Position numbers and translations under genes: made by a program
Notes under the pieces: generated by a model
What the model saw: the letters and a program-made list of their open reading frames with translations, nothing else
The model's database searches: none
What the model was told of the DNA's origin: nothing
NCBI GenBank assembly: GCA_903813345.2
Contig: CAIIXF020000002.1
Location: 844,001-908,000 of the forward strand
Direction of reading: 5' to 3'
Length of the DNA stretch: 64,000 nucleotides
DNA from: Owenia fusiformis
Lineage: Eukaryota; Annelida; Polychaeta; Sabellida; Oweniidae
Part shown: in pieces, positions 5,893-58,698 of the stretch
Numbering within the stretch: position 1 is the stretch's first letter
Layout of the letters: every line of letters starts with the position of its first letter

Positions 5893-6199
5893 ATGGCGGA
5901 TGAAATTGAAACCGAATCTGCGTCTTTTTTGTCTACTTTTGCGTCGGAACTGTTTGGCAGCCCCCTTAATTTGTGCTTATTAGCAATATGCCTGTTTCTT
6001 CTATACAAGATATTCGCTGGCAGACGAAATGCGACTCAGTTCGAGCCAAGACCACCGGCTTTAGCAAAATTGAAAAAACAGGATTTTACACTCGAGCAAC
6101 TGCGGGAATATGATGGGAAAGCCAAAGATGGACGCATATTGATGAGTGTAAATGGCAAAGTTTTCGATGTCACAAGAGGAAAAAGATTCTACGGTCCAG
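5893..6199 (+). CDS. PGRMC: PGRMC coding exon 1
   Basis: Encodes the N-terminus, the membrane segment and the start of the cyt-b5 fold, ending FYGP plus one base of the next codon. Donor CCAG|GTAATA. The frame runs on only to a stop shortly after the donor. Confidence 0.95.
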
Positions 6200-9100: not shown

Positions 9101-12100
9101 AATGAGCTCACCATTTATAGATACATCATTAATCTATTCTTTTGACATAATGTAGCATATGCCTTCAATACCCTTGCATAAAACCATATTGTTCTACCAG
9201 TATATTGCATGATTTTATGGATGCCTTAATATAGATTCATTAATAATGTTAAAATGTGATTGTGATGGTGTTATGTAAACTTCTCAGTAAATAATGAAAT
9301 TCATTTTTTCGACTGAGAAATTCCACTAAACAAAATGTTCAATCCAATTACACGAAATGAAATAATAAAGAGCGATTTGCATGATTTGAAAATATTCACG
9401 AGAAAATTAACATGAAATAAACATTCCAGAGAGAAATGTTTTGAAAGGAATTTTATGAAATGAAATATTCAAGATGAAATGAAGATAGAGTAAAATAGAG
9501 TAAAAAATCTGCGAGATTAGTAGCCTAATGAAGTAATGAAGAGAATATTATTTTCAAGCGTAGAACATTTTCTACTTAAAGATATATCCCATCAACCGAT
9601 TATTACTTAGCTGAAAATAATTACATTGTGAAGTCGGCTGCAAGGTAAAACCCTTTGGAAAAGATAGACTTCATTTATACTCTTTGAATTAGATGTAATT
9701 CTTTAATTATACTAATACAGTCAAAGAAATCGGGATGAAAATCAGGGGTGCAAATTTCTGAAAAATCAGGAGAAAAATCTGGGTTACAAAAACTACATTG
9801 ACAATTTGAAAAAAATTGGGAAAATTAATTGGTAGACAAATCCAGGCTTACAAAATTGATTTCATAAATAGGGGAGTTTGACAGGTGAGTATTAACTAAT
9901 TAGAGCCTGCCATCCCTCTTATAAGGTAACCATGTTGCATTCTCAGGTTGACCAACTGAGACTAGTACTTTACTTGCCAGTGAACCCAGGGTAGTCTCTT
10001 AAATCCCAATATAATAATATAATATAATTTGCTGCATATTGAATCTAGATCTAATGATCAGCCTGAAAATGTTACTATAGAAACCTGGCCCCTATGTAAA
10101 GGCAAATGAAATCGTTAGCTCAATCAGCTGGAACCATTTGTGAAAATTTCATATTGTCAAGTTATAGGGGGTACTCTGATATGATATGATACTTAGATGA
10201 GGTAAGATAAAGCTGCTATATCAGTATATCAGTACATGTAGGAATGTTTTCCAAATGATGGAAAATTATAAAGTATTGAGGAAATAGCATGCCAACATGC
10301 TTTGTAGATACCTTAGTTTGATTAGTTCAAGTTTATTTGGCCAGATTCATTTTGGTTTGTAAACCCTCAGCTGAAACAAGAAGGGAAGTTTGAATTTTAA
10401 CTTCGTTATTTCTATTGCATATATTGGATGAAGCCCAAATTACATATTTTGTAAATGCCTATCTTACACTAGTACAGTAATGTTACAGATTTGGGTTTTC
10501 AACTGGTCATCTTCCAATTCCCAGTTGTAATCCTATGCAATTAAACATAACTGCATTAACTACAACTTATAAATAAAGGTCCCTGTCCTCATGCAGTGAA
10601 TTCTAAATAAACATACTCTCTGATATATTACACAACTCAATGTGTGACCTTTTGATGTCAAGACTGCCATTCAATTTATTGATGCCTATTTGATCCCATC
10701 ACTCGGAAAGTGTTTGCCAGTGCAGTATAATTTTTACAGGATTGAATGAAGACTTGATGATTAAACATGTGGAGCCCCGTTTGATCAAGATCAAGTAAAG
10801 GTCATTGTTAAAAATTTGGCAATAGATTGAATAAGATATAAAGAATGTTTGAATTGTATTTTGCATACCCTGATTGACCTTAAAGAGTGTACATATTACA
10901 GTATAATATTATGGGAGACTAGTTTGAAGCATGGGCACTCTACTATACCTTGCATTAGGTGTTCATGAGCAACCCATTTGGCTTATTAGTAATGATTATG
11001 TATTTGTTTTTATTTGTCTGTTCCTTATGAATGGTTTATCAGATGATGTTAGATGTTAATAAGGTACTTTCAAAAATATACTAAACAATACAATTGGATA
11101 AAGAGTATCTTCTGCATTTCTAGGGGTTAGGTATAGGAGAGTGATGTGATGATAAGGACTCCAACAGTAAACCAACACTGTCATGCATTATTGTTTTTAG
11201 GGCTCAGCCAGTACATTCGGTTCTAAACTGTTTGGTTCAGTTTTTAACAGTACATTAATTCAGAAAAATATTGCCATATGCTGAAGTGAAGTATGGCATC
11301 CGATGGAGAAAAGAACTTGGCATTTTGTACATGTGAAGTTTTTGAAGTATGATATTTTCTCAAGCATTCATTATTCTCATATTCTGTTTGTGTGTTTCTA
11401 GGGGGTCCATACGGTGTGTTCGCTGGACGTGATGCTTCAAGGGGTCTTGCCACATTCTCTCTCAATGAGCAAACAATACAAGATGAGTATGATGATCTTA
11501 GTGATCTGAACAGCACACAGATGGAAAGTGTACGAGAATGGGAGGAACAGTTTATGGGTAAGTCATTGGTGTGTATGGGTAAGTCATTGGTGTGTATGGG
11601 CCAGTTATTGGAGTGTATGGGTAAGTTATTGGTGTGTATGAATAATTCATTTTAATGTATTGGTAAGTCATTGGTGTGTATTGGTAAGTTATTGGTGTGT
11701 ATTAGTAAGTTATTGGTGTGTATGTGTTAGTTATTGGTGTGTATGGGCAGGTTATTGATGTGTTATGTGTTAGTTATTGTGTATTGGGAAGTCATTGGTG
11801 TGTATGGATAAATTATTGGTGTGAATGTGTTAGTTATTGGTGTGTACGGGCAAGTTATTGGTGTGTATATGTTAGTTATTGTGTTTGGGGAAGTCATTGT
11901 TGAGTAAGTGAGTAAGTTATTGGTGTTTGTGTGTTAGTTAATGGTGTTTATGAGTAACTTATTGGTGTGTATGTGTAAGTTATTGGTCTATATGGGTAAG
12001 TCATTGATGTGTATGGGGAAGTTATTGGAGTGTATGGAGAAGTCATTGGTATGTATGGAGAATTTTTTAGTACATATGGGTAGATCATTGGTTTGTATTG

Positions 12101-13313
12101 GTAAGTTATTGGTGTGTATGAAAAAGTCATTGGTATGTATGGGTAAGTTGGTATATACCGATAAGTAATTGGTTTGCATGGGTTAGTCATGGGTATGTAT
12201 GGGTAAGTTATTGGTGTGTATGGGTAAGTAATTGGTGTCTATGAGGAAGCTTTTGGTATGTATGGGGAAGTTATTAGTGTATATAGGTAGGTCATTGGTT
12301 TGTATTGGTAAGTCATTGGTGTGTATGGGTAAGCTATTGGTATGTATGGGGAAGTTATTAGTGTATATTGGTGGGTCATTGGTTTGTATTGGTAAGTCAT
12401 TGGTGTGTATGGGTAAGTTAGTATATATATGGATAGGTCATTGGTTTGTAAATTAGTAAGTCATTGGTGTGTATGGGGAAGCTATTGGTATGTATGGGGA
12501 AGTTAGTGTATATGGGTAGGTCATTGGTTTGTATTGGTAAGTCATGGGTGTGTATGTTTAGTAATTTGGGTTAATGGCTAAGTTCTTAGATGAGGAATTT
12601 TAATTAATGGTGAAGTTTATTTGAGTAAATTGAAGGGGTTTATAGGTAATTATGGGCACCCTTGCTTGTTTTTAGTCCTCTGAATAATGAACATCATGAA
12701 TGATAGTATATGAGTCTTTGTATATATGTTGTAGCTAACTAATGTTTTGCCTTGAAAGTTATTTCTTTGTTATGATTTGCAAGTTCAGTAATTGCTCACA
12801 CATCAGTCTCTCACCTGATACAATTATCAGTTATATGTCAGCTTGACCTGACAAACAACAGCTGAGCGACTATTACTAGTATTCAATGTTAAAGGGCCTT
12901 CTTCTGGGTACACATACTAGCTGTATTTCATTGTTAAAGGGCCTTATTCTGAGTACACCTAGCAGCTGTATTATTTAATGTTAAAGGGCCTTATTCTGAG
13001 TACATGGTTTACCAAGCCTTTTATACTGTATATTCGATTTAGTTGATGCATGGTTTTGGCAAAATATAAAAAAACACCAAGAATTCACATATTTTGTGAA
13101 AGTTTCCAAAAGATCTGTCCCGTGTATCAGGTCACTTACACTTTAGTTTTACAACTATGACATTTCAGTCCGACATTGTCCATTTTGCTGTTTTATTTTT
13201 CAGAGAAATATGACTATGTTGGAAAACTTCTTAGGCCTGGAGAAAGTCCAACTGACTACTCAGACAATGAAGAAGATTCATCGAAAGACGGAGAGAAGTC
13301 GAAAGATGATTGA
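5893..13313 (+). CDS. PGRMC: Membrane-associated progesterone receptor component (PGRMC1/2 family)
   Basis: Complete three-exon gene: 5893-6199, 11402-11557, 13204-13313, joined in frame (both introns phase 1) to 190 residues; human PGRMC1 has 195. The protein is a single-pass ER membrane haem protein of the cytochrome b5-like MAPR family. In vertebrates it binds haem, supports cytochrome P450 enzymes and affects sterol metabolism. Seen here: a short lumenal N-terminus, a membrane helix ([19 protein letters not shown]), then the cyt-b5-like domain with [34 protein letters not shown] and DEYDDLSDL. Both tyrosines equivalent to human Y107 and Y113 (haem contact) are kept. The tail [13 protein letters not shown] retains the acidic serine site. 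ATG 5893 is chosen; the longer frame from 5854 begins with GTG. Whether it is the PGRMC1 or PGRMC2 type cannot be told, as invertebrates usually have one. Confidence 0.97.
6200..11401 (+). other. PGRMC intron 1 (5.2 kb)
   Basis: No exon-like frame seen. It holds the MITE at 6469-7049, a degenerate tandem patch of AAAATGTTAC-like words near 7860-7960, a paired direct repeat near 8745-8990 (AGTCTCCAG..TTTTTTGTGGAT, two copies about 130 bp apart), and a fragment of the ACAGTAAAACCTGT family near 8677. Confidence 0.7.
6469..7049. mobile_element. hAT-like MITE in PGRMC intron 1
   Basis: Terminal inverted repeat TAGAGGTGTCACGG at both ends. The flanks ATTCACAA and ATTCGCCA agree at 6 of 8 bases, so they could be a decayed 8-bp target duplication. 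The interior has repeated GGTACGG/GGGACGG words and no transposase. Confidence 0.6.
11402..11557 (+). CDS. PGRMC: PGRMC coding exon 2
   Basis: Core of the cyt-b5-like domain, from [14 protein letters not shown] to EWEEQFM. Acceptor TTTCTAG, donor ATGG|GTAAGT. The last bases of the exon are the first bases of the minisatellite that fills the following intron. Confidence 0.95.
11554..12556 (+). repeat. Splice-donor-derived 21-bp minisatellite
   Basis: About 45 copies of a 21-bp unit (ATGGGTAAGTCATTGG plus GTGT), diverging with distance. The first copy includes the final ATGG of exon 2 and its donor GTAAGT; later copies repeat donor-like GGTAAGT again and again. Copies 1-4 stay open in the exon frame, 7 residues each (MGKSLVC type), until a TAA at about 11653. 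Shadow ORFs on both strands here come from the repeat. Confidence 0.93.
12557..13203 (+). other. Rest of PGRMC intron 2
   Basis: Contains three tandem copies of a roughly 60-bp unit (about 12888-13010) built on TTAAAGGGCCTTATTCTG, each followed by GTACA and a CTAGC-like word. No coding seen. Confidence 0.6.
13204..13313 (+). CDS. PGRMC: PGRMC coding exon 3
   Basis: Encodes [20 protein letters not shown] and the acidic/lysine-rich tail, ending TGA at 13311-13313. Acceptor TTTATTTTTCAG. Confidence 0.95.
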
Positions 13314-15847: not shown

Positions 15848-16050
15848 TAATGAGGTGTCAAGGGGAAATAATGAGGTGACAATGGGGTGACGAGAGGGAA
15901 AATGAGGTGACGAGGAGAAACAATGAGTGGGAAAATCAGATGACGAGAGGAAACAATGGGGTGATGAGGTGAAGAATGAGGTGACGAGGGACATGAGATG
16001 ACGGATGGAAATAATGAGGTGACAAGGGGAATAATTGGGTGACAAGGGGC
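15848..16050. repeat. Degenerate GAGGTGACGAGGGGAAA array
   Basis: Irregular copies of an AATGAGGTGACGAGGGGAA-type unit of about 15-35 bp. The minus-strand frames here (Ser/His/Pro-rich) are repeat shadows. Confidence 0.65.
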
Positions 16051-16194
16051 TTATTGATTGATTGCAATTGTATATAGAAGGTGCTAATGTAATGTGTAAA
16101 TGTATCATGTAATGTATATAAAATGCCTTCATATTGATTTAATATGGTCCAAAAAAGCATTTAATGTAAGATTTGAACCAGTGTTTAGTTTGTT

Positions 16195-16280
16195 TTAGAG
16201 TGGCCTTTACTACTAGATTACCCATTGATTACTACTAGATTACCCAATGATTACTACTAGATTACCCATTGATTATTCGA
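16195..16280. repeat. Short tandem repeat, three copies
   Basis: Three copies of a 22-bp unit, TTACTACTAGATTACCCATT plus GA. Confidence 0.75.
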
Positions 16281-16344
16281 TTCATCAACAGTTTGTGTAC
16301 ATTAGAGAAACCAGTTTAATATGAACATAAATGAATGTCCAGTA

Positions 16345-16615
16345 GATGTGTTCACATTGTGATGTGTTCACATTGTGATGTGTTCACATTGTGAAGTGTT
16401 CACATTGTGATGTGTTCACATTGTGATGTGTTCACATTGTGAAGTGTTCACATTGTGATGTGTTCACATTGTGATGTGTTCACATTGTGATGTGTTCACA
16501 TTGTGAAGTGTTCACATTGTGATGTGTTCACATTGTGATGTGTTCACATTGTGATGTGTTCACATTGTGATGTGTTCACATATTGAAGTGTTCACATTGT
16601 GATGTGTTCACATAT
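16345..16615. repeat. 16-bp minisatellite inside a dispersed element
   Basis: About 16 copies of GATGTGTTCACATTGT. The outer flanks (ACCAGTTTAATATGAACAT.. and ..ATGTTCATATTAGATATGG) look like the ends of the ACAGTAAAACCTGT element family, so the array seems to have grown inside one copy of that element. Confidence 0.75.
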
Positions 16616-17914: not shown

Positions 17915-18513
17915 TTACTTTTTTTGAAACATTTCAACATGAGATCTCATATGTGTCACCTTATTGGTCTCAATTACGATTTTGCTGCACACAGCACATT
18001 GTAAATCTTTAGCTAGATGATGCTGGAGGCCTCGATTGCTTTGGAACAATTTATAGCAGTCCCGACATTGGTGTGATTTCTCCCCTGTGTGCGCAGCACC
18101 GTGATTGGTCGGATCATCACCCAGTTGATCGAGTCTACGGTTGCATACGTCGCAATATTTGTTATGTACCAACTGATTGTGGTATTCCAAACAACGTTTT
18201 GAAAACATGTTTTTATAGCATAACGAGCAAGTGTAGTTATCAGATACCTCAAAAGGTGGCGGGACTGCATCGATTGTATCATATAATTGATTTGCATTTT
18301 GTAACATCATGGATGTACTATGGGCTGTGATTGTTTGATCCTGGTAGGTAGCAGGCACTGTGATTGGCTGATCCTGGTAGGCAGCAGGAGTTGTGATTGG
18401 TTGATCCTGATAAGTTTGCCGTGTATGGGATGTCTGGTAAGATTTGGATATTGCAGGTGATGGCCATTGTTCCTGTATTGTAGCGTATATATCTCCAGTC
18501 GTACAGGCAGGGC
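17915..18513 (-). CDS. Alternative terminal zinc-finger exon F
   Basis: Acceptor TAATTTCATAG at 18514-18524; begins PACTTGDIYATIQ after the split Gly codon and ends TAA. The N-terminal half carries an 11-residue repeat (YQDQPITTPAA, YQDQPITVPAT, YQDQTITAHST). The C-terminal half has fingers YTCSLC..H....H, KYCDVC..H...H, a CRDCYKLF module ending HH, and CAVC..HMRSH. An HTGEK linker precedes the third. The frame runs on upstream to an ATG at 18577 by chance, through the intron. Confidence 0.82.
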
Positions 18514-21500
18514 CTATGAAATTAGACAAACCAATAAGAAAATGACATTGCAAGTTTCTATTTCGCAAAACATGCATTTCAGTAACAGTTCATTAGTTTT
18601 CATTTCTGGTAATGACCAAAAACTTTACTATACATATCCATTACACACAGAAAGTGTATTTCATTGCTGGATGGAAAGAAGTGAAACACCCTTGAACCAA
18701 GGATGTGCTGGGTGGATTGGTACCTTTTAACATGTGTACAAATGTGGAAAAAATCTGACAAGTGGGTTTCCTGATATCTAATGACTGGACTTATATAAAT
18801 AACTTCTAAAATGGCGGCCAGGAATCAAATTTGAAAAAAACTGATGTGTGGTTTTCTTGAATAGCAATGGCAAAATGGAAAATGTCGCCACCTGCAATTT
18901 GTTACAGACACCCACCGCCGAACCCTGACCACTGAACCCTGACAGCCGAACACCATCCACAAAAAAGTTTGAGATAATATTTCACCACTTCTGTGGGTGA
19001 CATAAAAACTGATCAACATAATAGCAATAAATAAAAATAAAAAACATGAACTCTAGGAACACATGTTCTCATTATTTCTTTTAATACTAATCAATCTACA
19101 AATTACATGCTCATAAAAGCAGCTACATTATATTTTATGACTAAACTGTAACAAACCTACATGTACATCATAGTTGTGGGCATTCAGATGTAAATGGACA
19201 ATATATTGCAATTATTAACTAATTCATCACTATTTACTTTGTGGTAATTTATGAAATTAATTGTTGCTACCCTTTTAGTAAAAATCTACCAGATAGACAG
19301 GTAAGTCACAAAAGGCGACCTATACAAAAGTAAATAGCCCAGTCATTCAGCATTGGTTTTCAACTATACAGGGTGTCAAATAAGTCCCGTCCCCCCCCCC
19401 CTCTACAGCCAAAACCAAGATATATGGTACCAAGTGTGATATATCATTGGAAAGGTCTTCGAAAGTTATGTTGACTAGCATATATCCGACACATGTCAAT
19501 CAATCTCACAAATTTTTACATTGTATCAATTGAGGTGACCATAGGCCCAGAAACATTGACATAATTTAAACCTCGTTAAATGTTCCTGCATTGGTCTTTT
19601 CCCAATGGCCACAATCTTATAACTATGCTGACCGAGTGATTAACAGTTGTTTCGGTTACCTGTTTTGGCTCACCCTGTACTGGTAGTAATTAGATACAGG
19701 GGCAACAAAGCATAATTATATGTTTAACTTTTTCAAAAGTTGAGTTTCATCTTTATTCTTTGAACATGGTTGATCTCACCTTTCCAAAGAGGACAAGAAA
19801 TCAGGACAGGTTGATCAAAATGCAACTGGCCTTCGTGTCATATTAAAATTGAAAATATCAAAGGCCATGACACCTCATATACTGTAAAACCTGTCTAATC
19901 CGAATGTCAAAGGTGATCGGACTAGCAGGTGTTCACATTTCAAGTTTTTTTAACATGGCAGTCAATGGGCCATGAGAGAATTACATTTTGAGACCAAAAA
20001 ATGTTCTCATCGAGAGGTGTTCAGATTAGAGAGGTGTTCAGATATACAGGTTTTACTATATTTGAGTGTCATTGAAATATTAACAGCATCTAAACTGTAT
20101 TTTCTCGTCTTACTCAGAGTCATTGACTATACCTTTCCAATTTTTTGGCCCACTCTGTACTTGCACAATATGATTGAACTGTCCTATTGAACGTTATCAT
20201 CTAATCAAATGTTAGGAAAATATATCAGAGCAAAGGTTCAACTCCAATGACACGATCTGCTAAAAATTAAAACTTTGCCAAGTGGTGCTGCTTCATATGT
20301 GATTGCTTCATGCTTCGTTGAATCTTCTTTTTACACACAACACACAATAAGTCTAGTTTGCCATGATGGAAATAGCCACTGTGTGAGTTGAATAGCTTAT
20401 AACAATATTTGCACTGGTGTGGCTTCTCCCCTGTATGTTTAAGTCCATGCTCTTGAACGTTTGGCTCGTCATCGAGACGTAATTGGCATACATCGCAATA
20501 TAGATTGTGAACCACTGATGTATGATATTCCAAGCAGCGATCATTTGGAAAATCTTTGAAACATTTATTGCACATAGATGTCTCTTGAATGTCGATGGGT
20601 TCGGGAATTTCGCGTATGGTCATATATCGTTGTTGCTCCAGTGCTTCGCCATACACACCAGTAGTACACATTGATGGGTCAGAATTTGTTCCTTGGAGTT
20701 CTAGTTTTGGTCCGCCTGGTTGCATGGACTGATGAGGCTGATTCCCCAGTGCATATTCTTGAGATCTCCCCAGTGTGGATTCAAAGTTCTCCCCAGATAC
20801 AGGCTCATAGACGCACCCTACAGATATATAAAATCTAATAATGATATTTCTGTGAATTCTTAAGATTTCCCCAGTGTGGATTCAAAGTTCTCCCCAGATA
20901 CAGGCTCATAGACGTACCGTACGGATATATAAAATCTAATGATATTTCTATGAATTCTTAAGATCTCATCGATATGGATTCAAAGTTTTCCCTAGTTACA
21001 TTACAAATTGAAGAACGGGGAAATGGCTCATCTCAAGATCTCCAAAGTTTTGTAATAAATTCTACACATACTCCTGGACTAACCCAACTAATTAACAAAT
21101 TGATGGAAGTGCTCATGTTGAAAAATAGTTCTCTAACATACTCAGGGCTGTCAACTTGGGACCACCTAATATGAGTGACTTCAAAATGTTGGACACCTAA
21201 GTCCAAATCTGAACACTTTTGTCCAAATTTTGAACACCTTTGGCCAACTTTTAAACACCTTTGGCCAAAGTTTGAGCACCTTTGCCAAACTTTGAACACC
21301 TCAAATTTTTCGCGATCGCTACGCTCGCGTTGTCGTCAACGGGGGGGGGGGGGGGGGGGGGGGGGGGGTTTGGTACGAAAAATTTCCAATGAACATGCGT
21401 GACACATACGGGATTCGTGTGACAAATCCGAACAAATTGCGTTCGTTTTTTTCCGGCGTTCGTATTTTTACCGTATCGTAAACATATTTCGAAAAAATTT

Positions 21501-35851: not shown

Positions 35852-35924
35852 ATGTCTGCGGAACAACCATTATATACACCATTCTTTGGAGTGATGGGGG
35901 CAACAGCCGCTATGGTATTTAGCT
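35852..35924 (+). CDS. ATP6V0C: ATP6V0C exon 1
   Basis: Encodes [20 protein letters not shown] to VFS plus one base; donor AGCT|GTAAGT. Confidence 0.96.
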
Positions 35925-41900: not shown

Positions 41901-43490
41901 AAACAGGGATTAGGCACATGTCCAAAAAAACATCCTGGGGAGATCAGTGAATACATGTTAATTGGATGATCCGATATACATTTAAGTGGAAATAGTCTAG
42001 CAACAAGCCCTTGTAAGTTGTGTCCCCCTCCCACTACTAGCTACACCCCATCTCTAGAGAGACCCCTAGTAGAGGGGCTCACAAAAGCTTGTAGCTAGAC
42101 TAAGTGGAAATGGCGTACATTTATTAATCATATTCTAACACCCATAATTCAAATGGGCTCAGCAGAGGTATCTTCATGTGAATGGGCTTTCACTTACAAT
42201 AGGAAATGCAAACTAATATTCTTCAAGCGTTTCAATTGAATTGATTTCCTGGTGGAATTGCTGGCTGTCTTTGATATGGAGTCAAAATTGGAATTGCTAG
42301 TGATCTTTGATACAGTCGAGTTTACCTTTTTTATTTTCTGTTTTCAATGCACGTTTAAATTATGGAAATAAGAAACCCAGCTGATTGGTGTTTAGTGTAA
42401 CTGTTGCCATGACAATGACATAGATGATATCATATAAACTGAGGTAGACTTTAACATTTTAATAGAATCATGCAAAAGTCTTTGTTTTTTAGGGTTGGGG
42501 GAATATTTCATAATTTTCATCCATATCAAGAATTAGTGCTAAATATTTTAAGATATAAAGTGAGGTAAAATAAAAAGGTGGGAATTAGAATGAGGTATAA
42601 TCTAAGAGCCTCAATATACTGCAAGGTATGGTAGTCAATATTTACCCTCGATGAGGACCCTTTAGGACCACATGTAATTCGATCACTGAGGGTCAAATTC
42701 ATTTTTTTATTATTTTTTCACAAATTCATTTTAGTCCAAGGGGCGATATGATATTTCCCAAAATATGTGTTGATTATGTATTTGTGTATATGTTTACCCA
42801 TTTTCGGCATGTTTGAGGTACACGAACCAGGTTTTTAAATAGTTGTACATTCATCATATTCTATTAACCTTTGGATAATCCCAATATCCTGAACCTCATA
42901 TAGGATAATCTCTAATATATGTGCTGGTATGGGAAAACAATAATTATGATGGAATTGTTCAATTATAGGGGTAATGTCAATTTATGGTTCATGCCATGAG
43001 ATTAATTGAATTGATGTCAGTTATTTTACAATGTAGCATTGGGGTATTTTTCAAAATCATATCTTGTATTGATACGATCCATATTGTGTGTAGTGTTAAA
43101 TATTGGTCTGTTCTGTGTCACTCATTTCTACACATGATCCATTTGTTAACTGCGATTCTCCTTGCTCAAATCAGATTTTTTTCAAATTTCATCCACAAAT
43201 TTTCTTTTAATTCATCAGACAATTGTATAAAGATATAGCATCTTAGTCACATTTAAAGCTAACCACTGTTTATTTCTATTTACAGGAGCTTCGTACATCT
43301 GGGTGCTGGACTTAGTGTAGGTCTTAGTGGTCTTGCTGCAGGCTTTGCCATTGGAATAGTAGGTGATTCAGGAGTACGAGGTACAGCCCAACAACCCAGG
43401 CTATTCGTTGGAATGATTCTTATCCTCATTTTCGCTGAAGTATTGGGTCTATACGGACTTATTGTTGCCTTGATCCTGTCAACTAAATAA
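35852..43490 (+). CDS. ATP6V0C: V-type proton ATPase 16-kDa proteolipid subunit c
   Basis: Complete three-exon gene: 35852-35924, 39908-40094, 43286-43490, joined to 154 residues (human 155). It is the rotor-ring subunit of the V-ATPase membrane sector and carries protons across endosome, lysosome and other acidic membranes. Four membrane helices are visible: [65 protein letters not shown], and [20 protein letters not shown], the last with the essential carboxylate Glu in [16 protein letters not shown] and [10 protein letters not shown] are family hallmarks. Introns are phase 1 and phase 2. The first ATG is used; [12 protein letters not shown] matches the usual short N-terminus. Confidence 0.98.
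35925..39907 (+). other. ATP6V0C intron 1 (4.0 kb)
   Basis: No coding seen. Contains ACAGTAAAACCTGT-family sequences at about 37551-37600 (partial) and 38255-38402 (whole, with GAGGTGTTCAGAT words). Confidence 0.65.
38255..38402. mobile_element. ACAGTAAAACCTGT-family MITE
   Basis: Starts TACGGTAAAACCTGTTTG and ends in GAGGTGTTCAGATATATTGG. Shares AACATGGTAGTCAATGGGA with the copy at 19880-20060. Confidence 0.7.
39908..40094 (+). CDS. ATP6V0C: ATP6V0C exon 2
   Basis: Acceptor TTGTATTTTCCAG, donor TTCAA|GTAAGT. Encodes [17 protein letters not shown] through helix 2 to PDSYTLFK. Confidence 0.97.
40095..43285 (+). other. ATP6V0C intron 2 (3.2 kb)
   Basis: No coding seen. Holds the 1.3-kb inverted-repeat element at about 40526-41803. 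Confidence 0.65.
40526..41803. mobile_element. 1.3-kb TIR element with internal CAAACTGCGYGCC motifs
   Basis: Imperfect terminal inverted repeats: left GGTAGTTACACGATGCCCAT, then GTCAAGCAGCGTGCC. The right end is the reverse complement of a matching GGTAGATAACTCACGGTGCC block. TA (or TAG) flanks both sides. The word CAAACTGCGYGCCTA or its complement recurs about ten times inside, in both orientations. There is no transposase, so it is non-autonomous. Exact borders uncertain by a few bases. Confidence 0.72.
43286..43490 (+). CDS. ATP6V0C: ATP6V0C exon 3
   Basis: Acceptor TTTATTTACAG. Encodes [12 protein letters not shown] through the Glu-bearing fourth helix to LILSTK and TAA. Confidence 0.97.
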
Positions 43491-47866: not shown

Positions 47867-47968
47867 TCAATGCTTTTCCAAGGCCTTAGAGAGAAGGTCA
47901 TTCAAGCGTCCTACAATTGTTCTTGGGTCCATAATCAGCCCAGCAGATATCATAGCATTGTCGTAGAT
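47867..47968 (-). CDS. TRAP1: TRAP1 visible exon 15 (last)
   Basis: Acceptor [30 protein letters not shown] to the C-terminus EKH and TGA. Phase 0 start. Confidence 0.96.
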
Positions 47969-50900
47969 CTGGAAATAAATGGGAAAAACACTCAGAATTC
48001 ATCATCTTAAAAGTCAAACAAACAAATTGTTTGAATTATAACGTTTTGCAATGAACACTGCATCTGACCAATTAAATAAATTACAGAGATCAACTGACCA
48101 TGAGCATTATGGGAAGGCATAGCCTTGTGTGGAATTCCACCAATCAGATTGCTTTTAAAGCTATGAACATCTAAATGGAGATTGTTCATCTTATCCTTAA
48201 TTTGGGGGACATTAAACTTATTGAGAAATCACTGTAAAATGCATCAATTAAACAAATCCTCGACAATTTATAAATTTTCATAGCCTTATAAGGAGGAAAA
48301 CATGTACACGATACAAGAATATGTCACCTCAAATCATGAGTGAGATGTGTGATCAAATTGTAAGACTGATAAAGACTACTCGGCCTTTAACACAATTAAT
48401 TTATGATCTTATGAAAAACAAGGAAATAAACAAATATTTTAATCTATGATATCAGAAAAAACTTAATTTGTTCAAAATCTGAAAATCGAAAATAGGGAAG
48501 TCAGAGAAAACAGAATGAATTTTGCCTTTATTATAAAACTATATATTTTACATATACATGTACAAGAGTGGAGATGAGAAAACATGATATTTTTGAACTG
48601 GGTTCAGATAAGTTAGATAAGGAATTAAGTTAAAACAATATATTTAAAGAGATAACAAAGAACAGAGATGAGTTAAATGGTAACCTTTTGAAATTTTTTT
48701 TTACCTGGGGTTCACAACTAAAGCAAAAGACATGTCATTGCCACAGTATTTCCCCAATTTGACATATTGGCATTCAGATTGCCCAATTTAAGCATCCAGT
48801 TTTTCCAAGTGCATTGCCCAATTTAAGCATCCAGTTTTTCAAGTCCATTGCCCAATTTAAGGAACCAGTTTTTCAAGTCCATTGCCCAATTTAAGCATCC
48901 AGTTTTTCAAGTCCATTGCCCAATTTAAGCCTCCAGTTTTTCAAGTCCATTGCCCAATTTAAGAAACCAGTTTTTCAAGTCCATTGCCCAATTTAAGCCT
49001 CCAGTTTTTCAAGTCCATTGCCCAATTTAAGAAACCAGTTTTTCAAATCCATTGCCAAATTTAAGAGACCAGTTTTTCAAGTCCATTGCCCAATTTAAGC
49101 ACCAAGTTTTTCCAAGTCCATTGCCCAATTTAAGAAACCAGTTTTTCAAGTCCATTGCCCAATTTAAGCCTCCAGTTTTTCAAGTCCATTGCCCAATTTA
49201 AGGAACCAGTTTTTCAAATCCATTGCCAAATTTAAGAAACCAGTTTTTCAAGTCCATTGCCCAATTTAAGCACCAAGTTTTTCCAAGTCCATGGCCGTGA
49301 GTGAAAAGTGATTGCCATTGTCAGTCAGGCAAATGGGAGTGTCAAACCTGTTTTTGGCTCAAACCATTTCTTGTCATATCTTAGATCTTTTTAAATATTT
49401 AATTTGAAATTCTGATCATTGTTTTAAAAGACACCTTCCTAAATTTTGTAAATTTCCTTCTTTGTTGCCCCTTTAAGGTACTCTAGTGACACTGTGTCTT
49501 AAGGTCACATTCTTCTCATAAGTTCTCACACATTGTTTTATAAGTGTACAATTGTAATGCATTTAAAATAGCCTCACAGTGTCATGTAAAGTCTGTAATC
49601 AGGCACTTTTCTCATATCTTAATAAACATTTTAGTAAAACATATATTTTTCTACATAACGATTCATAATGGTTGTGTGAATAGATTTTGCTTCCAGAAGA
49701 CACATTTTATTCTTACTTTAATTAGGTATTTCTTAAATAGAATATACTGGGGGATTAAATCCAAGTGCTTGAAGGAAGCCTAAAACACCACTCACCTGTT
49801 CTGCTACTAGTTTGGCCAACTGTGGATTGCTGTCTCTGATACTGTTAAGTTTCACAACAATTGGGTGACTGCAAAACATCAATTTTGTATTTTTCATTCA
49901 TTTTATTGTTAAAACTTCAGGCAAATCATGCTAGTTTTCGGTGGCTAAGCTATTTACATTGTAAGCAGTTAATGAATCAGAATCACACATCCCTGCAGGG
50001 TGGAAAAAATTAAAATTAAAAGGGATCAATAGAGGGAAGACTTGTGTTGTGTCATTGTGTGATACATAAGGTTTCTATTGATGAAATTCTAAACATTAGA
50101 TAAAGCCCTAGAAGGAAACAATACAAAAATACAGATATCACATATTTGTTTATTGTTTATATCATGTTATTACTTTTTTTGTTTACCACAAAAACTTGAA
50201 TAAACCAAGTCATCTTAGATCATCATCTTTTCATGTTACTTTACAAGATGAAACTTAAATTCAAAGTAAATCAATCCTGGTAAGACTGAATTCTTAAATA
50301 TGTCAAACATACGTATACATATATATAACAAATACAGACTTATATAAACAGTAAACCAATGACACTCATAGTTGTATTGCATTGAGATAAGTAGTGATTT
50401 GTTTCGAAAGAGTCATGTGAACAGATATGAAAAACACTTCAGATAACAATGGATCTTATCACTGCCAATAGGTGGCAGTGTTGTTTGGCATAAACAAATG
50501 GCAAACTCATGTGAAAAGAAAACACTAAATTAATTTGATTAATGATTAATCAATATTTACTGTAGCAGATAGAGTTAAAGTATTAACAGACTGCTAGTCC
50601 GTGTTATTGATATTCTATTTAAGAGCTTTTATGTGGATATTGGGAATCATTGATTTTTACGATGAAACACTGTATTGGTATGGGCTATGAATATAGAACC
50701 ATCATAATGTACTAATGTAGCCGGGATGCTCATATAGATATATGTATTGATTGATTTTCAACATGCATTTGGGATATGGAAATTAAATACTAATGTGCTA
50801 TCAATCGTCAGGTTTAGGGTAATTAAAATTGATTTAAGTGTCAGAACAAAGGATTTACTCCCTCCATATGTATCAAACGAGTAAGTTTTCCAAAATGTTT

Positions 50901-53900
50901 TGTTCAGGTTAACTTTAGGAACAAATCCCCAATTTCAGAAAATGAAATAAATAGATTTTACAGTTCATGTGAAAATTTACAGACTGCCACTTTAATACTA
51001 TTTATGAAACCATCTTCTAAAATTGTCTTCAAATGAAAAATCTTAATATTAAACATAAGCACTTAAAATAATGCATTCTGTTTATATTGAACATATCAAG
51101 TTAACTAATTTTACACTAAAACAGCATACCAAATAAAACAATTTCATGCGGTTCAAAAATTTGTGAATTTGATTTTTTATAGATGACATATTTTTCTCAA
51201 GTTTTCTTCTTGTAAAGAGTAATCATACCTTGGGTTAATTTCCAATGTTGGGTTTAAAACTCGATATTTCTCCTCGTCACTTTTATCATGAAGCTGAGTA
51301 CGCAAGAAGTGACGCATCATACCTAGTTCTTGTACCGTCACTATACAGGGGGTCGATGTCAAGGCATTGGTCACCTGGAATATTTAAAGAGCGGCAATCG
51401 TTAATTCAATATTTTGAATCATGAAACTTTCAACCTGTAAAATATATTTTTTATTTAAGTTCCAGCAAAATATCAATTTTTTCATTAAATCAACTAATCA
51501 ACAGATCCTAATTTGGCAATCAGTACAAGTACAATAGATAAGGAGGATAATGTATCCCAGCATACCTTGACCTTGTTGACCCGTGTACCCAGTGTCAGCT
51601 TCAACCAAGCACCCAATGAGTCTGCATCAGTCTGGGATATTGAGCCCTCATCTGAAAAATAATTGTGTAATTCAGACAATAATATCAATAGTCCATGGAA
51701 GCTAATTGTTTAGAAATGTATTTTGGTAGTTAATTTCATGTAAATTATCATAAAGAAATTTGGAAACAAATGAAATAGGTTGCCACATCTGCATTATTAT
51801 GTAGACAAGAATCCCAGAGAGACAGTAAAATCTGGTTCTATAGCTTTGTTTTCATATGAAGCATCATTTTCAACAGATTTTACCCATAATGCAATCTGGC
51901 AATTATATAAACAGACGACACCAGCTTAAACTTTGCTACATTAACTTAGTTTTTAGATGTAGCGTAATTTTCAACAGATCTTACCCATAATGCAATTCAG
52001 CAAGTTGCAGACGACACTTACCAGATTCATCAACTTTGGCATCTTCTTGTGCTTCTGCTACGACTTCATTCTCAACTGATCGGATATTTTTCTTGGCATA
52101 CTGCGATAAATTCATAAGCACCATTTCATCGTAAGGCTCAAAACAGAACAAAACCTCAATGTCTTTCTTTTTCAGCGCTTCCATATATGGAGATGCCTCT
52201 GCCAGTGCTCGGCTAAAATATAAAGGTACGAAATCAATAGAAGGATACTGTAACAGATTCCAAATATCCACCCACATCCAATGGTTTTTTTTAAGAAATA
52301 TAGACCAAAAAGCTGGGGTTATGCAATCTGGCAATTTTATAAGCAGATGACACTTACCAACTTAAAATCTGCTACATTAACTTAAGTTTTCAGATGGAGC
52401 GTAATTTTCAACAGATCTTACCCATAATGCAATTTAGCAAGTTGCAGACGACACTTACCAGATTCAATAGAATAAGGATACTGTAACAGATTCCAAATAT
52501 CCACCCACATCCAATGTTTCTCTTTGAAATATAGACCCACTTCAATTCTTTCAAAAAAAGACCAAGTTCTACGGATTTTTCAGTTAAAAAGTGACCCACT
52601 TTAGGTGCAAGTCCCATGCAGCCAATAAATGGGAGTTAATAGCTTTAAGTATTTTCTTATGTAATTGTACCTTGGCGCATGGAGGTAGAAAATGTTCCTG
52701 CCTCCAGCCTCCATTCTCTCAATGTAGTCATCAAAGCTGGTACGTTCATTAGATGGCATCTTAGAAGACTCAAATCTCAATAGTTTGGCAATTTCCTCCT
52801 GTAAGAAAACATGTCTCAATATGAGTTTGAATGCAAGAAAAGTTTAAATCAAGAAATGGTTTCAACTCACTTATGAAAATCAATTCTATATAAAGTGACC
52901 ACTAAGAAAGTCAACTCAATATGAAAATAAACTCAATATAGAACAGCCACTGAGACTATAAATTCAATATAAAGCGACCATTGATAATATCAACTCAATA
53001 ACTTACTCTGGCTGATTGTTCAGGTTCAGACACAATCCCCTCTCTAAAGTAGAGACCATAGTCCTCATAGAACTCTAGGTAGCTGGCAGGATCCTTTTTA
53101 CTTTTTTCCAGGAAGAAGCGAATAAGTCTGGATGTCAATACATTCCGTAACTTCCTGAAAGTGATTCATTTTTATTACATCTTATCTGGAATCTCAGCAT
53201 TCTGATTGGTTGATGTAGTAACATGTGATCAAGAATACAACAATATATCACACATCCTTCAATTTTTGAATTTATACCTGCTTGTCAATTCTGATGCGAT
53301 TAGGCGAAAATGCATTAATGTAATAAAACATAAAATAACACAAGGCAAACATGCAAAATGTCAACATCTGCCATTTGTAAAATTTGCCTCTAAAGAGCAA
53401 TGGACACCACAAAGCATGAGTTTAACTTCTAAAGACCTTACCTAATAAGATAACTTTAAAAGGTCCTTAGCAAATAAGATAACTTATAAAGGTCTTCCCT
53501 AATAAGAACACTTTAAAAGGCCTTCCCTAATAAGAACATTTTAAAAGGCCTTACCTAATAAGAACATTTTAAAAGGCCTTACCTGATAAGAACACTTTAA
53601 ACGGCCTTACCTAATAAGAACACATTAAAAGGCCTTACCTAATAAGATAACTTTAAAAGGCCTTACCTAATAAGATAACTTTTAAGGCCTTCCCTAATAA
53701 GAACACTTTAAAAGGCCTTCCCTAATAAGAACACTTTAAAAGATCTTACCTAATAAGATAACTTTAAAAGGCTTTACCTAATAAGAACACTTTATAAAAA
53801 GGCCATACCTAATAAGATAACTTTAAAAGGCCTTACCTCATAAGAACACTTTAAAAGGCCTTCCCTAATAAGATAACTTTAAAAGGCCTTACCTAATAAG

Positions 53901-56900
53901 AACACATTAAAAGACATTACCTAATAAGATAACTTCTAAAGGCCTTACCTAATAAGAACACTTTAAAAGGCCTTACCTAATAAGAACACTTTAAAAGGCC
54001 TTACCTAATAAGAACACTTTAAAAGGCCTTACCTAATAAGATGGCTGTCCTGTAGAAGTTCTCTACTCAAGTTCAATGGGATATCTTCACTGTCAACAAC
54101 ACCTGTAATTACAACAAAGAATCAAGCATTAGAGCACCTGAGAAAGATTTTCACTTGCCAAACCAAATGAGCCTCAAAAAGTTTCGTTTAACAGTACAGG
54201 GTGGGCCATATAAATGTTTCCAATCTGAGCTGGCAAAAAGATTATAAGGGTAACATTTTAGCCCAACCTGTACAATCCATCAGATTTAATTATTCAAAAT
54301 ACAGGAAATATTGATACAGAGTTAAATAAACACTTATAATTATGTGATAAAAATAGGATTTTCTTGCAATAACCAATCAAATACAGGGTGGGCATTAAGT
54401 CATATACAGGGTGACCACTTACCTTTGACAAACCTCAGCCATGCAGGTAGAATGCGACTTGATTTGTTCATAATCATAACTTTGCGAGAATACAGGGTGA
54501 CTCCAGATTCTCTGTCCTGACTCATGTCAAACAAAGCTACAATGAAAAATGCACAATGTAAGGTCTTGGAATAAAACTGTACTGAAAGAAAGAGCATTAA
54601 ATGTTCTATAGCAATTCAAATAACATTTTAAATTCCAAAAATGTTGCCAATCAGACTAAAACACATAAGTAATTTCAAAACACTAAAATTACTTGACATT
54701 AAAAATATTTGAAAAAATCATACTTTAACATAAACAATTCAATGTCCTTACTTGGTTTATACTGGGGCACATAAAAGAGGGCTCTGATGTTCAATGGGGC
54801 ATCAGTTTTGTAATGTAACGTATATCGTGGCTTATCATAAGCATTTGAGATGAATCTGAAAAACTCTTCATGCATGTCTTCAGTGACATCTTTAGGTTCT
54901 AAAGTCCACAAGGCTTGGATAACATTTGCTTTCTTTCCATTTACGTAAATTGGAACTCCGACAAAATTGCTGTATTTCTTGATGATATCTGGAAGGTAAA
55001 AGAAACAACATTTGAAATATTATGATTGTGATGAAATGCCTATTTTAAATATGCATTGTCATTGAGTGGGGACATACCTCCTAACATATTTACACTGGGA
55101 GACAGACCCAATGGGGGAAGGGTTCAGTTTATTTAAATTATTCCAGGGGGTTTAAATTTTACAATTTTTGCAAAAGATCACTAGAAATGCTGGAAATGGT
55201 GAAAACTGCATGTTTTTGCAAATACACAGACGTATTGAGCTTAGGGAACTTTATACACGTTGCTTATATTGTATCGTTCACGCACGTCTGTCATGGTGAA
55301 CGGAGTTGATTTGTGTTTGTGCTCATCCTCCATTTTTTCGTCTGCGCAGTGATGATGCGCAGACGTTTCCAAGGGTAATAGAAGTTGCAATTGTGACGTC
55401 AGCGGGCAATAGTTCAAATAAATATTCCCGCTGACGTCACATTTGAGGAAATATAACTTTCCAAGGGAAATAGTAAATCTATTTCGGAACACGTGACTAG
55501 GTATTGACCAATCATGATTAGTGTTACATATTGGGTATATAATAATATCACATATTTACATAACATATTCAGGAGACCCACTAGAACATGAAAGAACAGG
55601 AAAAATTATTGAAACTATATTGTTACCATGGAAACAGTGGCAAATTTTTTCAAAACCAATAGGCGATTTGGTAAAACCAACCAATGAAATGCCTGTTGCC
55701 TGCTGCTAAACAAAACCTCTGATTATCTATTGAAACTTCTGATCTAAGAAGTCAAATGTTGTACCTTTAATGACATCCTCCTTGGCAAAGTCGTAGCTGT
55801 CTCCTTTCAGATGTACCACGATCTTTGTTCCTCTTTGTACACCCTCTGCTTCTGATATCTCATATGTACCAGTCCTAAATACAAACAAGACATAAATGTA
55901 TAGATATCACACTTTTTACTTAAAAATCCACCTAATCAGGTCTTGGCACAACAAATTCTCTTAGTTCAATAATTGAAATAGTTTTAAAAGAGAGTATCAC
56001 ATACCACATATCATGTACTATTACATTGTTTTGTAAAAGAGGGGGCGCAATTATTTTTGACACCCTGTATATTTAAGAATACCCTCTGATATGGTGCCGT
56101 TTGTTTCTCGTTATGCTGTATATTTTTACTTACCCATCAGATGTCCATTTATGGGCAGGTTCATTAGCATCATGTGACTGAGAGTACACATCGACCTTTT
56201 CCCCGACCATAAATGTTGAGTAAAAGCCGACTCCAAACTGACCAATCAGATTGCTGGAAACATCTGGTTTATCTTTCAATTCTTCAAGAAACTCCTGGAA
56301 AAATGAAACAGTTCCATGAAATATATAATGTCACCTGAAATGTCTGTAACTAAATTTTCTCATTAAAACATTTTGTTAGCTACTAACAAAACATTGAAAT
56401 ATTGTAACATTTGCTCACAAAACAATGTAATAGTGTACCTTTGATTACAAAACATTGAAATATTGTACCTTTGATTACAAAACATTGAAATATTGTACCT
56501 TTGATTACAAAACATTGAACCATTGTACCTTTGATTACAAAACATTGAAATATTGTACCTTTGATTACAAAACATTGAAATATTGTACCTTTGATTACAA
56601 AACATTGAAATATTGTACCTTTGATTACAAAACATTGAAATATTGTACCTTTGATTACAAAACATTGAAATATTGTACCTTTGATTACAAAACATTGAAA
56701 TATTGTACCTTTGCTCTCAAAACATTGAAATATTGTACCTTTGATTACAAAACATTGAAATATTGTACCTTTGATTACAAAACATTGAACTATTGTACCT
56801 TTGATTACAAAACATTGAAATATTGTACCTTTGATTACAAAACATTGAAATATTGTACCTTTGATTACAAAACATTGAAATATTGTACCTTTGATTACAA

Positions 56901-58698
56901 AACATTGAACTATTGTACCTTTGATTACAAAACATTGAAATATTGTACCTTTGATTACAAAACATTGAAATATTGTACCTTTGATTACAAAACATTGAAA
57001 TATTGTACCTTTGCTCTCAAAACATTGAAATATTGTACCTTTGCTCACAAAACATAGACATATTGTAATTTGCACAAAAAAGCATTGTAACATTGTACCT
57101 TTGATCCTGACTTGGCAATTATTCCAAGGTTTGCCAACATTTCTGTTTTGTTCATCCCTATGCCAGTATCCTGGAACACAAGACAAAAGAAGGAGATAGT
57201 ACATAATCAGGGTGAAGAGTTTAAGGCTTTTTTTAAATAATAAACACTATTTCAGTTGTTGCTTAAAGACATGTTCGGATAATAATATTTAGGTATCTTA
57301 CTTAAAATAAAAAGTTAAATTTAAATGGCCACTTCATTAAAATTCAATACTTTACCATGTTTCTCTTTCAAAAATGCTCAACGCGACACCTTTCTTTTCA
57401 TGCGTGAATATCAAAAGTGAATTCTCAAATGCATTTTTTGATTATTTATGACATAACCATGTTCTTGTTATGTTTGTTTTAAAATCATATCATGTTTTTA
57501 AGATATTTTAAATTTAGACATATATCTCATAGTATGTCGAAAGTTAAAAAAAAAATTTTTAAATCTCAAACTTGCCCACACACCTGAATTGTAAAGGTTT
57601 TCTTGCTGTCATCAACTCCAATGTGAATCTCAAGTGGAACGTCCTTATCAGCTACATCTGGAGTCGTCATAGCCTGGTAGCGTAACTTCTCCAAGGCATC
57701 GCTACAGTTGGAGATCAGTTCTCTGATAAACACCTGGAGAATAAAGAACATGGAAATAAACACCTGGAGAGTAAAGAACATGGAAATAAACACCTGGAGA
57801 GTAAATAACATAGAAATAAACACCTGGAGAGTAAAGAACATGGAAATAATCACAGAGAGAGTAGATAAAATCATCTGGAAAATGAACATAAGACTTATAA
57901 TCTTCCTACCTCAAACAGCACTATGCAGCGCTGTTAATGAAACAGTGCTGTGTAAAGTTGTAACCAAAAAGCACTGTACTATAATGTTTAAAACAACGGT
58001 GTAAAGCATCAACACTAAACAATGTGATGCACAAACTGCACTGTTCAGTACTCACCCTATGCAGACAGAGCCTGTGGGAAATATTGGGTGTGGCGCAAAT
58101 GAGCGGAGGGTGCGGTACGTTTATGGAGCTCCTCCGCACCCAATATTTAGAGGGGGCTCATATTTGAAAAACATTTCCGAATTTTTATAAAATCACACAG
58201 ATACTGCCTGGCTTCCAAGATGCAAAAATAATTTGTATAGATAGTGTACCTTGAACACCATTTTTTATGAATGCTGGGGACTCAGTATTAAAAGGATAAT
58301 TTCAAAATATATAGGTCTGGGAAAGGTTTAAGGCACACTGCGTCGCTATAGAATGAATTGCGCTACTATTTTCACAATTGTATTGATATTTGGTGTCAAA
58401 TACACATATCTTGGTATATTTGAAGTCCCAAAACGGCTTAGTTTAATTCAGAAATATCCCAAATTTAAATTCAAAAATGACCGTTAGCTCCGCACCCTCC
58501 GCTCATTTGCTCCGCACCCAATATTTCCCACAGGCTCTGTCTGCATAGGGTGGTACTGTTTATAGCAATGTATATTACAGTGCAGATGATGTTGCAAATT
58601 GGGGGTGTTACTGACCTCTTTCTCTGAGTAGAGCGACTTTGCTACAATGTCCAAGAGTTTCCTCGTCTCTGCTTGGAATTCTTGTTTCTCAGCAGCAC
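47867..58698 (-). CDS. TRAP1: Mitochondrial Hsp90 chaperone TRAP1 (lacks N-terminal exon)
   Basis: Fifteen exons join without a frame break into 622 residues plus stop, matching human TRAP1 from about residue 83 to 704. TRAP1 is the matrix Hsp90, an ATP-driven dimer that folds client proteins and tunes respiration. Visible: the N-terminal ATPase with [29 protein letters not shown] (catalytic Glu and Mg-binding Asn), DTGIGM and GQFGVGFYS; the middle domain with [17 protein letters not shown] and LNLSRELLQ (catalytic-loop Arg); the C-terminal dimer domain with TLEINP and [16 protein letters not shown]. There is no MEEVD tail, as expected for TRAP1. The mitochondrial presequence exon(s) must lie upstream, beyond 58698, and were not found in the window. 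Confidence 0.97.
47969..49795 (-). other. TRAP1 intron with 33-bp minisatellite
   Basis: No coding seen. The array at 48780-49290 lies inside sequence resembling the dispersed element at about 14440-14830 (shared words such as TTGCCCAATTTAAG and GTGATTGCC). Confidence 0.65.
48780..49290. repeat. 33-bp minisatellite (TTGCCCAATTTAAG)
   Basis: About 15 copies of CATTGCCCAATTTAAGCCTC followed by CAGTTTTTCAAGTC. Not adjacent to a splice site. Confidence 0.9.
49796..49868 (-). CDS. TRAP1: TRAP1 visible exon 14
   Basis: Acceptor TGTTTTGCAG, donor [29 protein letters not shown] to VAEQ. The split codon reads Ser where human has Arg (NPR). Confidence 0.94.
49869..51228 (-). other. TRAP1 intron, nothing recognised
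   Basis: A+T-rich; no array, element end or exon was recognised. Confidence 0.6.
51229..51374 (-). CDS. TRAP1: TRAP1 visible exon 13
   Basis: Acceptor ATATTCCAG, donor CCAAG|GTATGA. Encodes [20 protein letters not shown] and ends at TLEINP. Confidence 0.95.
51566..51651 (-). CDS. TRAP1: TRAP1 visible exon 12
   Basis: Acceptor TATTTTTCAG, donor CAAG|GTATGC. Encodes [17 protein letters not shown]. Confidence 0.94.
51860..52475 (-). repeat. Scattered duplicates of the exon 11 donor region
   Basis: The block carrying the exon 11 donor (plus strand: GCAGACGACACTTACCAGAT) is copied near 51885-51935, 52320-52365 and 52411-52465. The copy at 52435-52465 keeps GAATCTG|GTAAGTGTCG exactly. A second pair, 52240-52310 and 52470-52545 (ATACTGTAACAGATTCCAAA), shows that flanking intron was duplicated too. 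It looks like an exon 11 tandem duplication whose exon body was later lost. Confidence 0.72.
52022..52212 (-). CDS. TRAP1: TRAP1 visible exon 11
   Basis: Acceptor TATATTTTAG, donor TCTG|GTAAGT. Encodes [20 protein letters not shown], then [10 protein letters not shown] and an acidic stretch. Confidence 0.95.
52671..52798 (-). CDS. TRAP1: TRAP1 visible exon 10
   Basis: Acceptor TTTTCTTACAG, donor CCAAG|GTACAA. Encodes [16 protein letters not shown] to RNIFYLHAP. Confidence 0.95.
53007..53154 (-). CDS. TRAP1: TRAP1 visible exon 9
   Basis: Acceptor CACTTTCAG, donor AGA|GTAAGT. Encodes [33 protein letters not shown]. Confidence 0.95.
53432..54040 (-). repeat. Splice-donor-derived 28-bp minisatellite (TRAP1 exon 8)
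   Basis: About 21 copies of a 28-bp unit; on the transcribed strand CTTATTAGGTAAGGCC then TTTTAAAGTGTT. The copy nearest the exon is the real junction, CTTATTAG|GTAAGG of exon 8. Copies alternate AACACTTTA and ATAACTTTA variants. Most retain ATTAGGTAAGG, an intact-looking donor. Confidence 0.93.
54033..54102 (-). CDS. TRAP1: TRAP1 visible exon 8
   Basis: Acceptor GTAATTACAG, donor ATTAG|GTAAGG. Encodes [20 protein letters not shown]; the Arg of LSRELLQ is the conserved catalytic-loop residue. Confidence 0.96.
54195..54275. mobile_element. Short ACAGGGTG palindromic element
   Basis: Ends ACAGGGTGGGCCATA and GCCCAACCTGTAC, about 80 bp. Similar ends occur in this window at 19368, 34482, 35537, 54384 and 56058. 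Confidence 0.5.
54423..54536 (-). CDS. TRAP1: TRAP1 visible exon 7
   Basis: Acceptor TTTCATTGTAG, donor AAAG|GTAAGT. Encodes [19 protein letters not shown] to LPAWLRFVK. Confidence 0.95.
54752..54988 (-). CDS. TRAP1: TRAP1 visible exon 6
   Basis: Acceptor TTACCTTCCAG, donor CCAA|GTAAGG. Encodes [19 protein letters not shown] through [20 protein letters not shown]. Confidence 0.96.
54989..55764 (-). other. TRAP1 intron with perfect palindromes
   Basis: Holds a decayed CAGGCCCGTAGCC-family copy (55085-55220) and two perfect inverted repeats listed as a regulatory candidate. Confidence 0.55.
55340..55440. promoter_or_regulatory. Paired palindromes with CRE and NRF1-like words
   Basis: CGTCTGCGCA and TGCGCAGACG form a 10-bp perfect inverted repeat (55340-55366). 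GTGACGTCAGCGGG and its complement form another (55393-55440). TGACGTCA is the CREB/ATF site and TGCGCA resembles half of the NRF1 site. Could be an enhancer, an internal promoter or transposon remnants. Confidence 0.3.
55765..55874 (-). CDS. TRAP1: TRAP1 visible exon 5
   Basis: Acceptor TTTGTATTTAG, donor AAAG|GTACAA. Encodes [20 protein letters not shown] to EDVIK. Confidence 0.95.
56134..56294 (-). CDS. TRAP1: TRAP1 visible exon 4
   Basis: Acceptor CATTTTTCCAG, donor GATGG|GTAAGT. Encodes [20 protein letters not shown], the Hsp90 GQFGVGFYS lid-hinge motif. Confidence 0.97.
56374..57105 (-). repeat. Splice-donor-derived 30-bp minisatellite (TRAP1 exon 3)
   Basis: About 24 nearly identical 30-bp units; on the transcribed strand AATCAAAGGTACAATATTTC then AATGTTTTGT. 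The copy nearest the exon is the real junction GATCAAAG|GTACAATGTT. Units are so alike that expansion must be recent or homogenised. Long frames on both strands ([10 protein letters not shown] and [10 protein letters not shown] decapeptides) are artefacts of a 30-bp period. Confidence 0.95.
57099..57170 (-). CDS. TRAP1: TRAP1 visible exon 3
   Basis: Acceptor TTGTGTTCCAG, donor AAAG|GTACAA. Exactly 24 codons: [16 protein letters not shown] to SGSK. Contains the DTGIGM nucleotide-binding motif. Confidence 0.97.
57584..57733 (-). CDS. TRAP1: TRAP1 visible exon 2
   Basis: Acceptor TATTCTCCAG, donor CAG|GTGTGT. Exactly 50 codons, phase 0: [20 protein letters not shown] to KKTFTIQ. Human has Ala where this has Cys in SNCSDA. 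Confidence 0.97.
57725..57870 (-). repeat. Splice-acceptor-derived 30-bp repeat (TRAP1 exon 2)
   Basis: Four to five copies of a 30-bp unit. On the transcribed strand each has TTTACTCTCCAG|GTGTTTAT: polypyrimidine tract, AG and the first eight bases of the exon. Only the copy nearest the exon continues into coding sequence. Confidence 0.93.
58053..58552. mobile_element. 500-bp TIR transposon with 5-bp target duplication
   Basis: Ends CACCCTATGCAGACAGAGCC and the exact complement continue as an inverted repeat of about 60 bp (through GGGAAATATTGGGTG and GCTCATTTGC words). Flanked by GTACT at 58048-58052 and 58553-58557. No transposase. It sits in the TRAP1 intron between visible exons 1 and 2. 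Confidence 0.88.
58616..58698 (-). CDS. TRAP1: TRAP1 visible exon 1
   Basis: Acceptor TTTTACTTGCAG, donor GAG|GTCAGT. Encodes [20 protein letters not shown] to YSEKE. Phase 1 start means at least one more coding exon lies upstream. Confidence 0.95.

Follow-up and report, generated by a model that had tools for sequence, protein, structure and literature searches.

Minisatellites spanning splice junctions in a 64-kb window of Owenia fusiformis look like a dense case of mirage repeats

Genes and splice junctions in the window

Why do several tandem arrays in a single stretch of the Owenia fusiformis genome begin at the edges of exons? The question concerns the window, i.e., the whole 64-kb stretch of DNA analysed here, in which three genes with homology support were read exon by exon. 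They are a PGRMC-like gene with three coding exons (5893 to 13313, plus strand; PGRMC1 structure 4x8y, E = 5e-48), a three-exon gene for V-ATPase subunit c (35852 to 43487, plus strand; 6vq6, E = 1.5e-72), and TRAP1, the mitochondrial Hsp90 (47870 to 58698, minus strand), with 15 exons read within this span and a joined product whose residues 3–622 align to the TRAP1 structure 6d14 (E = 6.5e-248). Their annotated splice junctions number 37 (18 donors and 19 acceptors), and GT is present at all 18 donors. Joined at the outermost sites, the exons give stop-free reading frames for PGRMC, V-ATPase c, and TRAP1. The alignment to the solved TRAP1 structure is ungapped at all three array-bearing joins of that gene, as is the alignment of the PGRMC product to PGRMC1 at its one such join. 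A low-scoring donor, AAG/GTACAA, is common to three of the 14 TRAP1 donors (57099, 55765, and 52671, minus strand), the first of which sits in a 30-bp array. Searches of the window found no tRNA genes and no match to an Rfam family at gathering scores.

Between 17918 and 29324 on the minus strand lie six C2H2 zinc-finger blocks, with one phase common to all of their probable acceptors. From this arrangement in the sequence, the blocks resemble alternative 3' exons of a single gene, for which Drosophila lola is a comparison case.

Arrays that span splice junctions

The 45 rows returned by the repeat finder were reduced to 31 arrays by keeping one row per array and removing a poly-G run; 29 of the 31 are not wholly coding. 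Four of the arrays span splice junctions, at four of the 37 homology-supported sites, with both exonic bases and the splice site contained in the repeat unit. One is a 21-bp minisatellite (11553 to 12556, plus strand) at the PGRMC-like donor 11557, which ends exon 2 (11402–11557). It includes five exonic bases, TATGG, followed by GTAAGT, and occupies 61% of the 1,646-bp intron 2. The other three are in TRAP1, on the minus strand. A 30-bp minisatellite (56386 to 57105) at donor 57099 of exon 57170–57099 overlaps the exon by seven bases, ATCAAAG, followed by GTACAA, and fills 89% of an 804-bp intron, and a 28-bp minisatellite (53431 to 54041) at donor 54033 of exon 54102–54033 overlaps it by nine bases, followed by GTAAGG, and fills 69% of an 878-bp intron. 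The remaining case is at an acceptor, 57733, of exon 57733–57584, where a 30-bp array of four to five copies (57726 to 57868) carries CTCTCCAG and then eight exonic bases, GTGTTTAT; it takes up 15% of an 882-bp intron. The V-ATPase subunit c gene has no junction-spanning array.

A fifth site is probable. A 101-bp duplication of 2.5 copies (20755 to 21000, minus strand) spans a C2H2 zinc-finger acceptor at 20817, with an exonic overlap of 63 bases and with AG replaced by AC in its upstream copy. This acceptor is probably real, judging by the open frame and the phase common to the neighbouring zinc-finger exons. The original prediction, that arrays start at exon edges, thus stands for four junctions fixed by homology and frame and probably for a fifth, and is not established for an array at 29474–29974, beside which no exon could be placed (see below). 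Its estimate of 4–8 exonic bases is close to the 5, 7, 9, and 8 bases found at the four sites; the overlap at the fifth is not narrow. Expressed as a share of unit length, the overlaps do not differ from a uniform distribution when all five cases are taken (KS P = 0.14) and depart mildly from it in the four short-unit cases (KS P = 0.02), so that narrowness of overlap is weak evidence.

Candidates not counted as junction arrays

The array at 29474 to 29974 (minus strand) has a 14-bp unit and repeats a donor-like AGAGAGGTAAATC motif, AGAGAG/GTAAATC. The open frame beside it has a coding score of +4.6 over its last 60 bp, which is borderline, since 5.3% of 3,000 stop-free noncoding segments match it. 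With TRAP1 excluded from training, the scores of its 15 exons ranged from −2.3 to 17.2, one of them below 0; the four known-exon control scores of an earlier coding test came from the training set. Among the acceptors listed in the roughly 260 bp upstream of the first candidate donors, the highest score is −0.6; the 19 known ones, every one of them part of the training set, score 6.3 to 15.6. Furthermore, the candidate donors leave zero or two spare bases in the open frame, and the zinc-finger exons need one. The borderline coding signal, the lack of an acceptor-like site in reach, and the phase mismatch together lean against a junction array here.

Two arrays in TRAP1 were also set aside. The degenerate 31/48-bp array at 52862 to 53000 (minus strand) begins at the seventh intron base after donor 53007 and leaves that junction uncovered, and the array at 48778–49296 lies within the last TRAP1 intron, away from both donor 49796 and acceptor 47968.

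Elsewhere in the window, minisatellites at 2247–2608 (42-bp unit) and 18325–18409 (33-bp unit) have units divisible by three and lie inside long open frames, the first of which shows, towards its end, a weak UBA-like match below the Pfam cut-off. Short tandem repeats at 4595–4633 and 4985–5019 are, by eye, near reverse complements of each other, and the pair resembles the termini of a small inverted-repeat element.

Units are mostly unrelated and unequally diverged

Mean column variation is 15% in the PGRMC array and 7%, 4%, and 2.5% in the TRAP1 arrays at 54033, 57099, and 57733, respectively. Of the ten pairs that can be formed from the five units, nine are no more similar than shuffled sequence. 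The exception is a weak match between the units of TRAP1 57099 (56386–57105) and 57733 (57726–57868), which have TATTTC(A/C)ATGTT in common. The score of this match was reached by 3 of 2,000 shuffles, with ten pairs tested, and by 47 of 2,000 random intronic 30-mers, a draw that included the same introns; by sequence, these two units may not be wholly independent. The differing divergence and the mostly unrelated units indicate that the arrays arose separately and at different times, in agreement with the repeated, independent origin that had been proposed.

Inner copies duplicate the splice site but cannot buffer it at two of four junctions

Donors were scored with a weight matrix built from the other 17 donors. 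Inner GT sites that score at least as high as the used donor number 7 in the PGRMC array, 12 at TRAP1 54033, and 20 at TRAP1 57099, so the copies do duplicate the splice site; at the TRAP1 acceptor 57733, three inner acceptor AGs are retained. Such redundancy raises the possibility that the arrays are kept by selection, with extra copies buffering or regulating the splice site, including through in-frame alternative splicing. The units of PGRMC (21 bp) and of the TRAP1 acceptor (30 bp) are divisible by three, and their nearest copies lie in open frame and would add 7-residue and 10-residue units, respectively, which, along with the many high-scoring copies, speaks for this reading. The reading frames argue otherwise. 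Beyond TRAP1 donor 54033, a stop follows immediately, before any intact later donor copy, and beyond donor 57099 it comes after 17 codons, again before the first intact later copy. Later copies therefore cannot buffer the site at these two junctions, and use of the outermost site is what yields protein. In PGRMC, the intron frame is open until 11653, and among the equal or better-scoring copies only those at +21 and +63 fall within it.

Nor are the decoy GT dinucleotides especially conserved. Some have been lost in array copies, and their T ranks with the more variable columns in two arrays (0.29 and 0.24) and is unchanged in the third; inspected by eye, the column values give no clear signal of either purging or keeping of decoy GT. 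The buffering proposed in the original prediction is thus mostly unsupported, and we regard maintenance by selection as very improbable.

Chance, and whether junctions are hotspots

The arrays might be striking only through the post hoc choice of a window in an array-rich region. Arrays take up 10% of noncoding bases, and the fraction of junctions spanned (4/37) is no higher (P = 0.51). This coverage-based null is biased by array length, since growth inside an intron cannot engulf a junction, and we set it aside as the main null in favour of one in which each array is represented by a single, randomly placed founding unit. Across the whole window, with 29 arrays, 0.54 junction-spanning units are expected versus four seen (P = 0.0018). 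Within the 18 introns, with ten arrays after two overlapping TRAP1 rows were merged, 0.43 are expected versus the same four (P = 0.0005). Adding the six probable zinc-finger acceptors, one of which is spanned, gives 5 of 43 junctions against 0.63 expected (P = 0.0003); the positions used for two of the six were wrong by 2 and 9 bases, which leaves the count unaffected. Subsets of large arrays gave still smaller values (P = 4e-5 and 2e-6 for the whole window, 1.5e-5 for introns), but their 140-bp cut was set post hoc and they are not relied on. A comparison of junction 20-mers with random intronic 20-mers gave no junction value below 0.07, a null outcome that follows from random intronic points often falling inside arrays. 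The window was chosen for its odd look, so the P values overstate the surprise, and a genome-wide excess is not established. The founding-unit null and the recurrence of the same anatomy in several lancelet genes, as described in published accounts (PMC3087553, PMC3902484), both count against chance alone, which we consider a possible but doubtful account.

The gap between about 0.5 expected and four seen indicates that something may raise the birth or survival of arrays at junctions. One proposal is that junctions are hotspots of minisatellite birth linked to transcription or splicing, through R-loops or stalling at U1-bound sites. It would accommodate an excess of about seven to nine times the founding-unit expectation, the involvement of donors and acceptors alike in two or three genes, and a PGRMC unit with eight G and no C on the coding strand. 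However, G-skew is strong only in that unit (1.00); the remaining three units have weak skew or skew of the opposite sign (0.33, 0.14, and −0.27), so an R-loop cause, as originally suggested, is not supported in general. The 63-base exonic overlap at 20817 and the derivation of the excess from a single window, selected for its unusual look, also tell against this proposal, which we rate as quite unlikely.

A model for arrays at splice junctions

We favour, with fair confidence, the reading that these are mirage-type minisatellites, i.e., that duplications which straddled a junction by chance were tolerated through splicing at the outermost copy and then grew within the intron. A short tandem duplication, with a founding unit of 21–101 bp, would by chance straddle an exon–intron boundary, and both founding copies would carry a few bases from the end or the start of the exon together with the splice site, an anatomy that is observed in the arrays. 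The intact homologous reading frames suggest that splicing takes place at the copy outermost on the exon side, which would leave the remaining copies intronic and the protein unchanged. Slippage or unequal exchange would subsequently lengthen the array within the intron, where its copies would diverge. Under this model, a founding duplication that spanned the junction accounts for an array edge at the exon, and the overlap consists of just those exonic bases that the founding unit contained, so that the position of the edge calls for no mechanism directed at splice sites. Outermost-site use, slippage as the mode of growth, and neutrality are inferences from genomic sequence.

The density of junction arrays in the window is notable, and the loci amount to natural experiments on how splice sites are chosen, in which the correct donor stands ahead of the equal or better-scoring copies counted above and, at TRAP1 donors 54033 and 57099, later copies would introduce a stop codon. 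If such arrays were enriched genome-wide and outside lancelets, they would offer a testable way for introns to grow and splice sites to turn over. A bolder version, in which junctions here are true hotspots of minisatellite birth or survival outside lancelets, donor-anchored arrays are a main route of intron lengthening, and the spliceosome picks the outermost among up to 21 near-identical donors, seems unlikely on present evidence.

Comparison with known systems

Tandem duplications that affect exon–intron structure have been reported in several settings. In a potato RdRp gene, a short duplication with splice signals crosses an intron–exon boundary, in the context of intron gain from AGGT sequences (PMC4974935). 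The arrays described here likewise involve short duplications with splice signals, and one may ask whether their introns arose when AGGT-containing exon sequence was duplicated in tandem (the Rogers model) or when an introner inserted. In favour of such an origin, AG/GT bounds three of the four units, and in three introns the array makes up 61–89% of the length. However, the arrays (15–89% across the four introns) never extend from donor to acceptor but end before the opposite splice site, so the introns look lengthened, not created. Units from different introns are mostly unrelated, and a search for introner-type elements in this window found no related sequence across introns beyond the one weak match in ten pairs. 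Intron creation is therefore extremely improbable. In human segmental duplications, internal tandem repeat expansion can alter exon–intron structure (PMC2812944); those repeats change exons or form introns, whereas here the coding sequence read from the outermost sites is intact.

The chance-straddling model instead finds its closest parallel in lancelets, as the original prediction had noted. Boundary-spanning tandem repeats in Adh3 and the globin genes BflGb6 and BflGb9 are called mirages there, with units of 10–72 bp in Adh3 and 150–160 bp in the globins; they are unstable in length, and splicing is said to stay undisturbed (PMC3087553). Troponin C was later added to the mirage genes, and 60- and 108-bp repeats of PGBD5 were likened to them (PMC3902484). 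Among the matches listed in a search of open-access literature, we found no report of mirages outside lancelets, which is a weak negative. The present arrays differ from lancelet mirages in their crowding: a single gene, TRAP1, has three of the four to five cases found within 64 kb. Base composition differs as well, with a GC content of about 34% in the window and a higher one, roughly 41%, in Branchiostoma. Like mirages, the arrays span boundaries at either donors or acceptors and carry AG/GT signals in many units, a likeness drawn from the genomic sequence of one haplotype. Their unit lengths of 21, 28, 30, and 30 bp fall inside the Adh3 mirage range, and the 101-bp unit at 20817 lies between the Adh3 and globin ranges, near the 108-bp repeat of PGBD5. 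The arrays thus look like a new and dense example of an oddity already on record, the mirage, and not like a new kind of element.
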